Source: Streptomyces canus | GTDB taxonomy: Bacteria; Actinomycetota; Actinomycetes; Streptomycetales; Streptomycetaceae | Assembly (NCBI RefSeq): GCF_041435015.1 | Contig: NZ_CP107989.1 | Coordinates: 2,170,001-2,234,000, forward strand | Reading direction: 5' to 3' | DNA: 64,000 nt | Part shown: piece after piece, positions 7,930-12,255 of the stretch | Layout: each line of letters opens with the position of its first letter | Position numbering within the stretch: position 1 is the first letter of the stretch | Program-made: the position numbers and the translations under genes | The notes under the pieces: model-generated | What the model saw: only the letters and a program-made list of their open reading frames with translations | Database searches by the model: none | Told to the model about the DNA's origin: nothing

Positions 7930-9093
7930 ATGCCTGTCGCACTCGGAGTGCCGACGGTGCCGCCGAGGCTGGCCCAACGACGTACCAGCCGTCAGATCCA
8001 CGTAGGACCCGTGCCGGTGGGCGGGGACGCCCCGGTGTCCGTGCAGTCCATGACCACCACCCGTACATCGGACATCGGCGCCACCCTGCAGCAGATCGCC
8101 GAACTGACCGCGTCCGGCTGCCAGATCGTGCGGGTGGCCTGCCCGACTCAGGACGACGCGGACGCCCTGGCCACGATCGCCAAGAAGTCGCAGATCCCGG
8201 TGATCGCGGACATCCACTTCCAGCCCAAGTACGTGTTTGCCGCGATCGAGGCCGGGTGCGCGGCGGTCCGGGTCAACCCGGGCAACATCAAGCAGTTCGA
8301 CGACCAGGTCAAGGAGATCGCGCGGGCCGCGAAGGATCACGGCACGCCGATCCGCATCGGCGTCAACGCCGGTTCCCTGGACAGGCGGCTGCTGCAGAAG
8401 TACGGCAAGGCCACCCCGGAGGCCCTGGTCGAATCGGCGTTGTGGGAGGCGTCCCTCTTCGAGGAGCACGGCTTCCGTGACATCAAGATCTCCGTCAAGC
8501 ACAACGACCCGGTGGTGATGGTCAACGCCTACCGGCTGCTCGCGGAGAAGAGCGACTACCCCCTGCATCTCGGGGTCACGGAGGCGGGCCCGGCGTTCCA
8601 GGGCACGATCAAGTCGGCGGTCGCGTTCGGCGCGCTGCTCAGCGAGGGCATCGGCGACACCATCCGCGTGTCACTGAGTGCCCCACCCGCGGAGGAGGTC
8701 AAGGTCGGCATCCAGATCCTGGAGTCGCTGGGCCTCAGGCAACGGCGCCTGGAGATCGTCTCCTGCCCCTCCTGCGGCCGCGCCCAGGTCGACGTCTACA
8801 AGCTGGCCGACGAGGTCTCGGCCGGCCTGGACGGCATGGAAGTGCCGCTGCGCGTCGCCGTGATGGGCTGCGTCGTCAACGGCCCCGGCGAGGCCCGCGA
8901 GGCCGACCTCGGCGTCGCCTCCGGCAACGGCAAGGGCCAGATCTTCGTCAAGGGCGAGGTCATCAGGACCGTCCCCGAGTCGAAAATCGTCGAGACGCTG
9001 ATCGAGGAGGCCTTGAAGCTTGCCGAGCAGATGCCTCGGGAAGAGGCTGACCCCTCCGCCGAGCAGGTGACCGTGAAGGTGGTGGGCGAGTGA
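7930..9093 (+). CDS. ispG: 4-Hydroxy-3-methylbut-2-enyl diphosphate synthase (IspG/GcpE)
   Basis: 387 residues. It converts methylerythritol cyclodiphosphate to HMBPP using a [4Fe-4S] cluster and low-potential electrons. A TIM-barrel domain carries the signature around residues 30-100, VSVQSMTTT and then [11 protein letters not shown]. Cluster ligands are C279 and C282 (CPSCGR) and C314 (GCVVNGPGE), with the fourth ligand Glu in GPGE. It is very similar to the housekeeping streptomycete IspG as I recall it. The ATG at 7930 is preceded by GGGGGAA at suitable distance; the in-frame ATG at 7912 lacks a site. The TGA overlaps the GTG of the oxidoreductase alpha subunit (GTGA), so the iron-sulfur enzyme is coupled to its candidate electron source. 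Confidence 0.95.
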
Positions 9094-10955
9094 GTACGCC
9101 GCCCACGGTGAAGCAGCTCGACCGGGTCGTGATCCGGTTCGCCGGCGACTCGGGCGACGGAATGCAGCTGACGGGCGACCGGTTCACGGCGGAGACAGCG
9201 GGCTTCGGCAACGACCTGTCGACGCTTCCGAACTTCCCCGCCGAGATCCGGGCGCCCGCCGGCACTCTGCCCGGGGTGTCGTCCTTCCAACTGCACTTCG
9301 CCGACCACGACATCCTCACCCCCGGTGACGCGCCGGACATCCTGGTGGCGATGAATCCGGCTGCGCTCAGGGCGAACCTGGCGGACCTGCCGCGCGGTGC
9401 GGAGATCATCGTCGACACGGACGAGTTCTCCCGGCGCGCCCTGGCAAAGGTGGGCTGGAGCGCCAACCCGATGGACGACGGCACGCTGGAGGCGTACCGG
9501 GTGCATCCGGTGGCGCTGACCACGCTGACCGTGGAGGCGCTGAAGGACTCGGGGCTCACCCGCAAGGACGCGGAGCGGGCGAAGAACATGTTCGCCCTGG
9601 GCCTGTTGTCCTGGATGTACCACCGGCCCACCGAGGGCACCGAAAGGTTCCTGCACACCAAGTTCGCCCGGCGGCCGGAGCTTGCCGAGGCCAACGTGAC
9701 CGCCTTCCGGGCGGGATGGAACTATGGCGAGACCACCGAGGCGTTCGCCGTCTCCTACGAGGTGGCGCCGGCCGAGCGGGCCTTCGCGCCGGGCCGCCAT
9801 CGCAACATCTCCGGAAACCTGGCCCTGTCCCTGGGGCTGGTGGCGGCCGCCGAACGCGCGGGCCTGCCGCTGTTCCTGGGCTCGTACCCGATCACCCCGG
9901 CCAGCGACATCCTGCACGAGCTGAGCAAGCACAAGAACTTCGGGGTGCGCACCTTCCAGGCCGAGGACGAGATCGCCGGCATCGGCGCGGCCCTGGGCGC
10001 GGCCTTCGGCGGCGCGCTGGGCGTGACCACCACCTCCGGTCCGGGCGTGGCCCTGAAGTCGGAGACCATCGGCCTCGCGGTCTCCCTGGAACTCCCGCTC
10101 CTGGTGGTCGACATCCAGCGCGGCGGACCGTCCACCGGACTGCCCACCAAAACCGAGCAGGCCGACCTGCTCCAGGCGATGTTCGGCCGCAACGGCGAGG
10201 CCCCGGTCCCGGTCCTCGCCCCGGCCACCCCGGCCGACTGCTTCACGGCCGCTCTGGACGCGGCCCGCATCGCCCTGACGTACCGCACTCCGGTGTTCCT
10301 GCTGTCCGACGGCTACCTGGCCAACGGCTCCGAGCCCTGGCGCATCCCCGACGTGGCCGAACTGCCGGACCTGCGGGTGGAGTTCGCCACCGCTCCGAAC
10401 CGGCCCGACGGCGCCTTCTGGCCGTACCTGCGTGACCCCGAGACGCTGGCCCGCCCTTGGGCGGTGCCGGGCACCCCGGGTCTGGAGCACCGCATCGGCG
10501 GCATCGAGAAACAGGACGGCACGGGCAACATCTCCTACGACCCCGCCAACCACGACCGCATGGTGCGGCTGCGCCAGGCCAAGGTGGACGGCATCGCCGT
10601 ACCGGACCTGGAGGTCGACGACCCGTCGGGGGACGCCCGACTGCTGGTGCTGGGCTGGGGCTCGACGTACGGCCCGATCACCGCCGCGGTGTCCGAGGTG
10701 CGCGCCGCCGGCGGCAGGGTCGCGACCGCGCACCTGCGGCACCTCAACCCCTTCCCCGCCAACCTCGGCGCGGTGCTGCGCCGTTACGACCGGGTCCTGG
10801 TGCCGGAGATGAACCTCGGTCACCTCGCACTGCTGCTGCGCGCGCGGTTCCTGGTGGACGTCCGCTCCCACACCCAGGTCTCCGGCATGCCGTTCAAGGC
10901 CGCACAGCTGGCCACCGTGATCGAGGAGAACCTGGAGGCCACCGGTGCCCACTGA
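9090..10955 (+). CDS. korA: 2-Oxoacid:ferredoxin oxidoreductase, gamma-alpha fusion subunit (KorA-like)
   Basis: 621 residues with the gamma domain (residues 1-200, opening [10 protein letters not shown]) fused to the alpha/pyrimidine domain (about 215-600, with [11 protein letters not shown] and the TTTSGPG loop). This is the layout of actinobacterial KorA. With KorB it decarboxylates a 2-oxoacid, usually 2-oxoglutarate, to the acyl-CoA and reduces ferredoxin. The start is the GTG overlapping the ispG stop. The stop lies inside the first codons of korB, an 11-bp overlap. KorAB is normally a central-metabolism enzyme. Here the copy is embedded downstream of IspG, IspH and a P450, so I infer a dedicated reductant role. 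The substrate (2-oxoglutarate or pyruvate) is not settled by sequence. Confidence 0.92.
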
Positions 10956-11883
10956 CCTCGCCCTCACCCCGAAGGACTTCAAGTCCGACCAGGAGGTGCG
11001 CTGGTGCCCCGGCTGCGGCGACTACGCGATCCTTGCCGCAGTCCAGGGCTTCATGCCGGAGCTGGGCGTCGCACGCGAGAACATCGTCTTCGTCTCGGGT
11101 ATCGGCTGTTCCTCCCGCTTCCCGTACTACATGAACACGTACGGCATGCACTCCATCCACGGCCGCGCCCCGGCCATCGCCACCGGCTTGGCCTGTGCCC
11201 GCCCCGACCTGTCGGTGTGGGTGGTCACCGGCGACGGCGATGCGCTGTCCATCGGCGGCAACCACCTCATCCACGCCCTGCGCCGCAACGTCAACCTCAA
11301 GATCCTGCTGTTCAACAACGAGATCTACGGCCTCACCAAGGGCCAGTACTCGCCCACCAGCGAACAGGGCAAGATCACCAGGTCGACCCCGATGGGCTCC
11401 CTGGACGAGCCGTTCCGCCCGCTCTCACTGGCCATCGGCGCGGAGGCCTCCTTCGTCGCCCGCACCCTCGACTCCGACCGCAAGCATCTGACGGACGTCC
11501 TGCGCCAGGCCGCCGCCCACCAGGGCACGGCCCTGGTCGAGATCTACCAGAACTGCAACATCTTCAACGACGGCGCCTTCGACGACCTCAAGGACCCCGC
11601 CACCCGCGACGGCGCCCTGCTGCGTCTGGAACACGGCAGGCCCTACCGGCTCACCCCGGACGCCGAGGAGATCGTCCACGACGTCGAGGATCCCGATCCC
11701 ACCGCTGCCTTCGCCCTCTCCCGGCTCAGGCACCCCACCCCCATCGGCATCCTGCGCAGTGTCCGGCGCCCCGCCTACGACCAGCTCATGAACCAGCAGA
11801 TCTCCAGGGCCGCGGCCGAGCGGGGCCCGGGCGACCTGGCCGCGCTGCTGACCGGTACCGACACCTGGACAGTCGGGGACTGA
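10945..11883 (+). CDS. korB: 2-Oxoacid:ferredoxin oxidoreductase, beta subunit (KorB-like)
   Basis: 312 residues. The beta subunit binds thiamine diphosphate and a [4Fe-4S] cluster. The N-terminal CPGCGD motif, the TPP motif VVTGDGDALSIGGNH and the conserved NNEIYGLTKGQ loop are all intact. It starts with GTG at 10945, with GGAGG upstream inside the end of korA, and overlaps korA by 11 bp; this means equimolar expression. It ends 51 bp before a ferredoxin gene. Together these make a complete oxidoreductase-ferredoxin module. The C-terminal extension after residue 250 (LRHPTPIG) is typical of actinobacterial KorB. Confidence in the family is high; the biological role in supplying the MEP enzymes is inference. 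Confidence 0.93.
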   Translation: MPTDLALTPKDFKSDQEVRWCPGCGDYAILAAVQGFMPELGVARENIVFVSGIGCSSRFPYYMNTYGMHSIHGRAPAIATGLACARPDLSVWVVTGDGDALSIGGNHLIHALRRNVNLKILLFNNEIYGLTKGQYSPTSEQGKITRSTPMGSLDEPFRPLSLAIGAEASFVARTLDSDRKHLTDVLRQAAAHQGTALVEIYQNCNIFNDGAFDDLKDPATRDGALLRLEHGRPYRLTPDAEEIVHDVEDPDPTAAFALSRLRHPTPIGILRSVRRPAYDQLMNQQISRAAAERGPGDLAALLTGTDTWTVGD

Positions 11884-11934
11884 GCCCGACAGCGACAACC
11901 TCCACAGACAGCCACATGAACAGAGGGAGCATTC

Positions 11935-12255
11935 GTGACCTACGTCATCGCGCAGCCTTGTGTCGACGTCAAGGACAAGGCGTGCATCGAGGAGTGCCCC
12001 GTCGACTGCATCTACGAGGGCCGGCGGGCCTTGTACATCCACCCGGACGAATGCGTCGACTGCGGGGCCTGTGAGCCGGTCTGCCCGGTCGAGGCCATCT
12101 TCTACGAAGACGACACTCCCGAGGAGTGGAAGGACTACTACAAGGCGAACGTCGAGTTCTTCGACGAGCTCGGCTCCCCCGGCGGCGCCAGCCAGCTGGG
12201 TCTGATCGAGCGCGACCACCCGGTCGTCGCCGGACAGCCGGTCCGCACGGCATGA
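11935..12255 (+). CDS. fdxA: 7Fe (3Fe-4S/4Fe-4S) ferredoxin, FdxA-like
   Basis: 106 residues. Cysteines C9, C17, C21 and C25 in the first third and C40, C43, C46 and C50 in the second give the pattern of actinobacterial seven-iron ferredoxins, followed by the conserved PEEWKDYY segment and an acidic C-terminal tail. It is a soluble low-potential electron carrier. GGGAG lies before the GTG start. As the last gene of the run it can accept electrons from KorAB and pass them to IspG, IspH or the P450; which of these it serves cannot be told from sequence. The gene ends the terpenoid segment: the next gene is on the opposite strand 360 bp away. Confidence 0.93.
   Translation: MTYVIAQPCVDVKDKACIEECPVDCIYEGRRALYIHPDECVDCGACEPVCPVEAIFYEDDTPEEWKDYYKANVEFFDELGSPGGASQLGLIERDHPVVAGQPVRTA

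Follow-up and report, generated by a model that had tools for sequence, protein, structure and literature searches.

The electron donors of IspG and IspH, the [4Fe-4S] enzymes of the methylerythritol phosphate (MEP) pathway, are described as fed by reduced nicotinamide adenine dinucleotide phosphate (NADPH), and electron supply as a limiting point, in the accessible portions of PMC8837944 and PMC8617995; the former, a 2022 review, in the same portion still asks how electrons are transferred to IspH in vivo. In Streptomyces, seven native carriers were tested with the IspG of S. cattleya in Escherichia coli; it was active with two of them and inactive alone, and the activating carriers, Fdx1 and Fdx3, include one double-cluster protein (Fdx1), treated as carrying two [4Fe-4S] clusters (PMC8896826, eLife 2022, in extract). 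Here we analyzed 64,000 nucleotides of Streptomyces canus (contig NZ_CP107989.1, positions 2,170,001 to 2,234,000; this whole stretch is called the window), in which the MEP genes ispH, dxs and ispG are followed by korA and korB, for the two subunits of a 2-oxoacid:ferredoxin oxidoreductase (KorAB), and by fdxA, for a 7Fe-type ferredoxin. Among open-licence papers on korAB or a ferredoxin oxidoreductase together with ispG/ispH, pentalenolactone or terpenoid clusters, no description of this arrangement was found in titles, abstracts and extracts, in agreement with an earlier note on this DNA, whose author was aware of no described biosynthetic cluster of this kind.

We favour, at a probability of roughly 0.55, the reading that these six genes are a cassette supplying precursors within a pentalenolactone cluster and equipped with an electron source of its own. 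In such a cassette, FdxA would pass electrons to IspH and IspG, and KorAB would use 2-oxoglutarate (or another 2-oxoacid) and coenzyme A to re-reduce FdxA without NADPH. KorAB would be an optional booster, and where it has been lost, another KorAB or a ferredoxin-NADPH reductase would recharge the same ferredoxin. That IspG and IspH have such a linked supply of electrons is plausible, with better support for the ferredoxin than for KorAB, which is a likely yet dispensable reducer of FdxA.

Tails of related pentalenolactone loci

The run ispH-dxs-ispG-korA-korB-fdxA follows penI on the plus strand, at the end of its cluster. Beyond the window, penE, penF, an efflux gene, penH, penM and a glyceraldehyde-3-phosphate dehydrogenase (GAPDH) gene continue the cluster in the same genome, and the pen genes M, H, T, F, E, D, B, A and I lie with the GAPDH gene in one run. 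Since seven pentalenolactone enzymes (PenM, PenH, PenF, PenE, PenD, PenA and PenI) passed the equivalog cut-offs of NCBIfam (NF045811, NF045812, NF045813, NF045814, NF045818, NF045815 and NF045816), the ispH-to-fdxA run is, by family matching, the tail of a full predicted pentalenolactone cluster. The order is no chance arrangement, because a second genome, G253, has the same gene order at 96 to 99% protein identity.

Matches to penA were found in 11 of 392 Streptomyces genomes, the window's included, and at seven loci of a species collection (L049 to L055). G270 was left out as no true pentalenolactone locus (65% for penA, 37% for the P450), as were L049, whose contig ends inside ispG, and L055, which ends just after dxs; this left 15 readable tails, among which the same strain may stand both as a genome (G) and as a locus (L). 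The tail was complete, with all genes intact, in the window and G253. In L050 (Streptomyces sp. SID8352), korA and korB are frameshifted, and the ferredoxin gene is intact and followed by ispE, while in G378 a deletion fuses korA into a korB piece, again next to an intact ferredoxin gene. The ferredoxin gene comes directly after ispG in L051 and L053, the former keeping a 47-bp korA scar (E = 5e-11). G133 (L251, 13933-14562) has ispH, a dxs remnant and an intact ferredoxin gene, and neither ispG nor korAB was seen in the stretch read. The tail ends at ispG, without a ferredoxin gene, in L052, G138 and G088; the tail of L054 is ispH alone; and G117, G282, G029 and G093 are devoid of MEP genes and of a ferredoxin gene. 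The open ispE of L050 (17272-18228), directly 3′ of the ferredoxin gene, adds another MEP gene to that tail. A cluster of another type, L260 (G085, 2949-10951), carries ispH-dxs-ispG followed by a ferredoxin gene without korAB, and also shows P450 matches and a tryptophan 2,3-dioxygenase-like match below cut-off.

Taken over the 15 tails, fdxA was present in 7 of 11 loci with ispH versus 0 of 4 without MEP genes (one-sided Fisher p = 0.051); counting the window and G253 once gave 6 of 10 versus 0 of 4 (p = 0.070). We regard this association as a trend only, because the loci are related. PenI was present in all 15 readable loci, and its presence without a ferredoxin gene at the four loci lacking MEP genes speaks against the ferredoxin being there for the cytochrome P450. 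These data favour the iron-sulfur enzymes over the P450 as clients.

The rival reading, that KorAB and FdxA feed the cluster P450s PenI and PenM, had been raised in the earlier note as a second role ("perhaps the P450") and is disfavoured by the same 0-of-4 count. P450s of the same gene run do need a ferredoxin, and a P450 match lay in the stretch at 12 of 63 korA loci outside the housekeeping setting defined below. We assume the ferredoxin called FdxD to be of the 7Fe FdxA type, given its strong conservation. In an earlier in vitro test cited in the available part of PMC12967844 (2025), FdxD with FprD let PtlI form the alcohol and the aldehyde and no acid, which is compatible with P450 supply; against it, the same part reports that PntI in E. 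coli was boosted by XNR_5179, a ferredoxin of the FdxG type, and that the FdxD-type XNR_1673 left the yield unaffected. Together, these observations make P450 supply an improbable purpose of the module.

Lineages of korAB and their linkage to MEP genes

The earlier note had named as a refuting outcome that the window's korAB be the only one in the genome, with a purely central role; instead, three korA loci are present, in the window, at 4.35 Mb (81% identity) and at 7.20 Mb (82%). The genome also has four ispG and three ispH genes, four genes for FdxA-like ferredoxins (one just 55%) and four dxs loci, two of them split into two pieces in the match list; the window's ispH is 54% identical to the two other copies. 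Across Streptomyces, 383 of the 392 genomes had a korA match and 60 had at least two, the latter including at least one (G119) with a single gene in two pieces. After exclusion of the three rows of the window's own genome (G000) and, for genes split in two, of the second piece, 120 of the remaining 123 korA regions were read (G264:C76, G343:C12 and G343:C22 were omitted). We call the setting of the 4.35-Mb korA (L005) housekeeping because its neighbours recur at 57 of the 120 regions, the class being defined by at least three neighbours shared with L005, so that loci on short contigs may be misclassed. At none of these 57 loci did the stretch read contain a MEP gene or a ferredoxin gene lie within 1.5 kb, while 21 of the 63 others had a ferredoxin gene within that distance. 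The window's korAB is not of the housekeeping kind: the G253 copy of the same operon has no L005 neighbour at all, and the window's KorA lies outside the 24-row set (97/94) that contains all 14 housekeeping-context rows of the tree. Recent duplication of the housekeeping korA of this strain was ruled out as its origin by the 81% identity and by this position outside the clade.

The 7.20-Mb copy adjoins its own ferredoxin gene (fdx-korB-korA) about 10 kb from a run of genes for a prenyl diphosphate synthase and a flavin adenine dinucleotide (FAD)-dependent monooxygenase followed by dxs-ispG-ispH. The surrounding region (L006, L017; G000:C1, about 7.192-7.217 Mb) contains, besides this run, a UbiA-type prenyltransferase, a sulfotransferase, cysD, cysC and three P450s, and by gene content it is a second predicted terpenoid cluster sharing both elements, korAB-fdx and MEP genes. 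Its product is perhaps a sulfated meroterpenoid. A third case is G141 (L178), in which ispH, ispG, a prenyl synthase gene, dxs, korA, korB and a ferredoxin gene are consecutive, with pieces of dxr and ispE and then transposases behind them; positions 3300-17500 of this locus look like an island for terpenoid precursors that is in decay or has moved recently.

In approximately unbiased (AU) tests of KorA, run under the simple LG+G4 model with groups picked after an earlier tree had been seen, a single clade of the window, G141 and the second cluster gave p = 4e-7, a pairing of the window with G141 gave p = 0.0009, and one of the window with the second cluster (L006) gave p = 0.028. Since KorA of the three clusters falls in separate branches, the pairing of korAB-fdx with MEP genes probably arose more than once. 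A wider claim would be that KorAB with FdxA, driven by a 2-oxoacid and independent of NADPH, was recruited on three or more occasions by terpenoid clusters of Streptomyces for the two iron-sulfur steps of the MEP pathway while the product is being made, and that FdxA is the natural donor of IspH/IspG in these bacteria; we advance it tentatively, as less likely than not.

The neighbourhood survey that the earlier note had proposed bore it out in part: the pairing recurs in two other clusters, but korA and ispG are not generally adjacent in actinomycetes. Among 108 genomes of the class, the two genes lay within 20 kb of each other only in the window's own genome, a comparison of lists by eye (korA in 90 of 108, ispG in 107 of 108) that includes many drafts with the genes on different contigs. 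Two further loci with korA and a dxs-like gene, L220 and L221, were rejected as MEP cases and taken as sugar clusters: in L220, korA is flanked by genes for a sugar-nucleotide dehydrogenase and for two aminotransferases of the DegT type, and L221 is a close relative of L220. As to unusual settings, a 2-oxoglutarate-iron dioxygenase gene lies 1 bp 5′ of korA-korB on plasmid NZ_CP108444.1 (L273, 5259-8914), and G226:C1 and G208:C1 each carry equal-scoring extra korA genes near both chromosome ends, as in terminal inverted repeats.

Several observations weigh against a linked electron supply. A ferredoxin gene is missing from 4 of the 11 ispH-bearing loci, and the association at p = 0.051 or 0.070 comes from related loci. 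KorAB is intact in 2 of 15 tails, those of near-identical relatives, broken in 2 and reduced to a scar in 1; a permanent linkage of KorAB to the supply of IspG/IspH was therefore not found. Between L050 and G378, the ratio of nonsynonymous to synonymous substitution rates (dN/dS) was 0.68 for korA and 0.70 for korB, versus 0.15 for ispG, 0.21 for ispH and 0.34 for the ferredoxin gene (11 differences). G117 (apparently the same locus as L272, NZ_CP107797.1, on a linear plasmid of Streptomyces sp. NBC_00557) has an intact korA-korB at 4904-7856, about 11 kb from penI on the opposite strand with other genes between, and has no MEP genes or ferredoxin gene. MEP genes truly accompany korA at 3 of the 63 non-housekeeping loci (G253, G378 and G141), or at 5 of 65 when the window and the second cluster, which are outside the 63, are added, and the ferredoxin gene of G141 carries an in-frame stop. 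Conversely, among 23 other loci with at least two MEP genes, some on cut contigs, 19 had neither korA nor a ferredoxin gene; a ferredoxin gene was in reach in 3 (L260, L178 and the second cluster) and korA in 3 (L178, the second cluster and L062), two of these only at 7 to 10 kb (7 kb in L062). Finally, none of the carriers tested restored activity to the IspG of S. coelicolor, though its expression was also undetected (PMC8896826, in extract).

Several of these points would also fit a reading in which only the ferredoxin serves the cluster, as donor of IspH/IspG recharged by general reductases, and korAB is a passenger between ispG and the ferredoxin gene that is being lost. In favour of such a passenger, many Streptomyces carry extra korA copies, mostly away from MEP genes (at least two matches in 60 of 392 genomes), and several are plasmid-borne; the spare plasmid copies examined adjoin quite different, unrelated genes. 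Moreover, korAB was lost or decayed with the ferredoxin gene kept at three related pentalenolactone loci, and the L050/G378 ratios point to relaxed selection. On the other hand, the window and G253 copies are intact, with dN/dS of 0.12 for korA and 0.15 for korB (20 and 16 differences), values inside the range that the neighbouring genes cover, so that on few differences this korAB is under purifying selection; the overlaps joining ispG, korA and korB also speak against a passenger, as does korAB-fdx lying alongside or close to MEP genes in both G141 and the second cluster, in different KorA lineages. The dN/dS contrast therefore suggests that one lineage retains KorAB and that it is in decay in the other, and we consider a mere passenger unlikely, albeit a rival to be taken seriously. 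Of the dedicated reductant module proposed in the earlier note, what finds support is the restriction of fdxA to ispH-bearing pentalenolactone loci, the two further clusters with KorA of other branches and the need of one Streptomyces IspG for specific native carriers (PMC8896826, in extract); what does not is KorAB as a fixed part.

Genes and predicted proteins of the tail

All genes described here are on the plus strand. The gene penD (265..1164), for pentalenolactone F synthase, an iron/2-oxoglutarate dioxygenase, matched NF045815 at 599.8 bits (cut-off 550). Next comes a penB-like polyprenyl (farnesyl) diphosphate synthase gene (1038..2174; PF00348), whose real start is probably downstream of 1038; its product also comes near NF041169, the family-2 encapsulin cargo polyprenyl transferases, at 422.3 bits against a cut-off of 450. 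These are followed by penA (2235..3281) for pentalenene synthase (NF045811, 709 bits, cut-off 675) and penI (3394..4788) for the P450 pentalenene oxygenase (NF045812, 870.8 bits, cut-off 800). The tail begins with ispH (4785..5783; TIGR00216, 303.4 bits), for the [4Fe-4S] 4-hydroxy-3-methylbut-2-enyl diphosphate (HMBPP) reductase, which overlaps penI in ATGA, and continues with a 4-bp overlap into dxs (5780..7609; TIGR00204, 572.4 bits), for 1-deoxy-D-xylulose 5-phosphate synthase.

The open reading frame of ispG, for the [4Fe-4S] HMBPP synthase (NF001540, 540.9 bits), extends at its longest from 7792; an alternative ATG at 7930 follows a ribosome-site-like GGGGGA and gives 387 aa to 9093. Because the three other ispG products of the genome align to that of the window only from residue 44-50, 7930..9093 is the likelier gene, although with the ispG products of some pentalenolactone relatives the alignment already begins at residue 13-22. 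The stop of ispG lies inside the start of korA (GTGA, 9090-9093). The latter (9090..10955, 621 aa, GTG start) encodes the alpha subunit (TIGR03710, 640.7 bits, cut-off 482.75) and overlaps by 11 bp with korB (10945..11883, 312 aa, GTG start), for the beta subunit (TIGR02177, 250.6 bits, just below the cut-off of 261.9). At 51 bp 3′ of korB, behind a ribosome-site-like GAGGGAG, fdxA (11935..12255, 106 aa, GTG start) matched NF045480 (FdxA_Actino) at 188.4 bits (cut-off 125). Both overlaps and the 7Fe ferredoxin had been noted earlier, and the coordinates and family matches agree. Between 7500 and 12700, a search returned zero promoter-like sites and one terminator-like site, on the minus strand, which was not above shuffled sequence.

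The predicted proteins appear competent. KorA has fused gamma-alpha domains with a YPITP motif at residue 266, and its best solved relative is 6n2n_A (E = 2e-71, nearly full-length alignment). KorB aligned with 6n2n_B over its first two thirds (E = 2e-59), and CPGCG, GIGCSS and the final Cys have counterparts there; with its thiamine diphosphate site and four cluster cysteines (Cys 21, 24, 55 and 204), it is expected to bind thiamine diphosphate and one [4Fe-4S] cluster. Chains of pyruvate:ferredoxin oxidoreductases (9bt4, 6cin and 1b0p) scored far below 6n2n. We take 6n2n/6n2o to be the 2-oxoglutarate enzyme of Magnetococcus marinus, and because of this closeness the comparison favours 2-oxoglutarate as the putative KorAB substrate. 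The nearest structure to FdxA is ferredoxin 2v2k (E = 1e-50), presumably M. smegmatis FdxA, and its eight cysteines (9, 17, 21, 25, 40, 43, 46 and 50) follow the [3Fe-4S][4Fe-4S] spacing by which 7Fe ferredoxins are recognized. IspG has Cys 279, 282 and 314, and IspH has Cys 14, 98 and 196, which we assume to be the expected cluster ligands.

Pentalenolactone blocks GAPDH, and PenD and PenH are 2-oxoglutarate enzymes by family, so KorAB might instead tune central carbon metabolism, by coping with a glycolysis disturbed by the product or by removing the 2-oxoglutarate used by PenD/PenH. The GAPDH gene within the cluster and the korAB of G117, near pen genes without MEP genes, would suit this idea. 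It leaves unexplained, however, why the ferredoxin gene occurs only with ispH and why korAB stands in two clusters for other products, and 2-oxoglutarate use by KorAB would compete with PenD/PenH; we give it hardly any weight.

Comparison with known systems

The pentalenolactone clusters pen, pnt and ptl (S. exfoliatus, S. arenae and S. avermitilis) share with the cluster described here the same pen genes and the GAPDH gene. MEP genes, korAB and a ferredoxin are unmentioned for them in the accessible parts of PMC12967844 and PMC11727764, and the pentalenolactone locus of Streptomyces sp. NBC_00557, unlike that of the window, stops at penI. Plasmids pSSP121038 and p65_CHABEC resemble the window in that extra MEP genes lie next to those for a terpene synthase and a P450, but korAB and a ferredoxin gene were not found in those stretches. 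Structures 6n2n/6n2o share the two-subunit layout and can be aligned with nearly all of KorA and with KorB over its first two thirds; their PDB name is pyruvate flavodoxin/ferredoxin oxidoreductase. The enzyme of the window differs in lying within a biosynthetic cluster.

On the side of the ferredoxins, Fdx1 and Fdx3 of S. cattleya are alike in that a Streptomyces IspG relies on particular native ferredoxins, one of them (Fdx1) with two clusters, but they were separate genes in E. coli, and the available text of PMC8896826 connects them neither with korAB nor with a terpene cluster. The pentalenolactone cluster, in turn, points to a single candidate ferredoxin and a single candidate enzyme for reducing it, and natural losses in related clusters can be compared with it; if the reading of a cassette with its own supply is true, the genes could serve to raise MEP flux in hosts limited by electron supply (PMC8617995, in extract). 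FldA/Fpr of E. coli and PetF/PetH of cyanobacteria likewise combine a low-potential carrier with a reducing enzyme for IspG/IspH (PMC8617995 and PMC8837944, in extract), and the contrast lies in the source of electrons, which is NADPH in both of these systems and would be a 2-oxoacid in the module proposed here.

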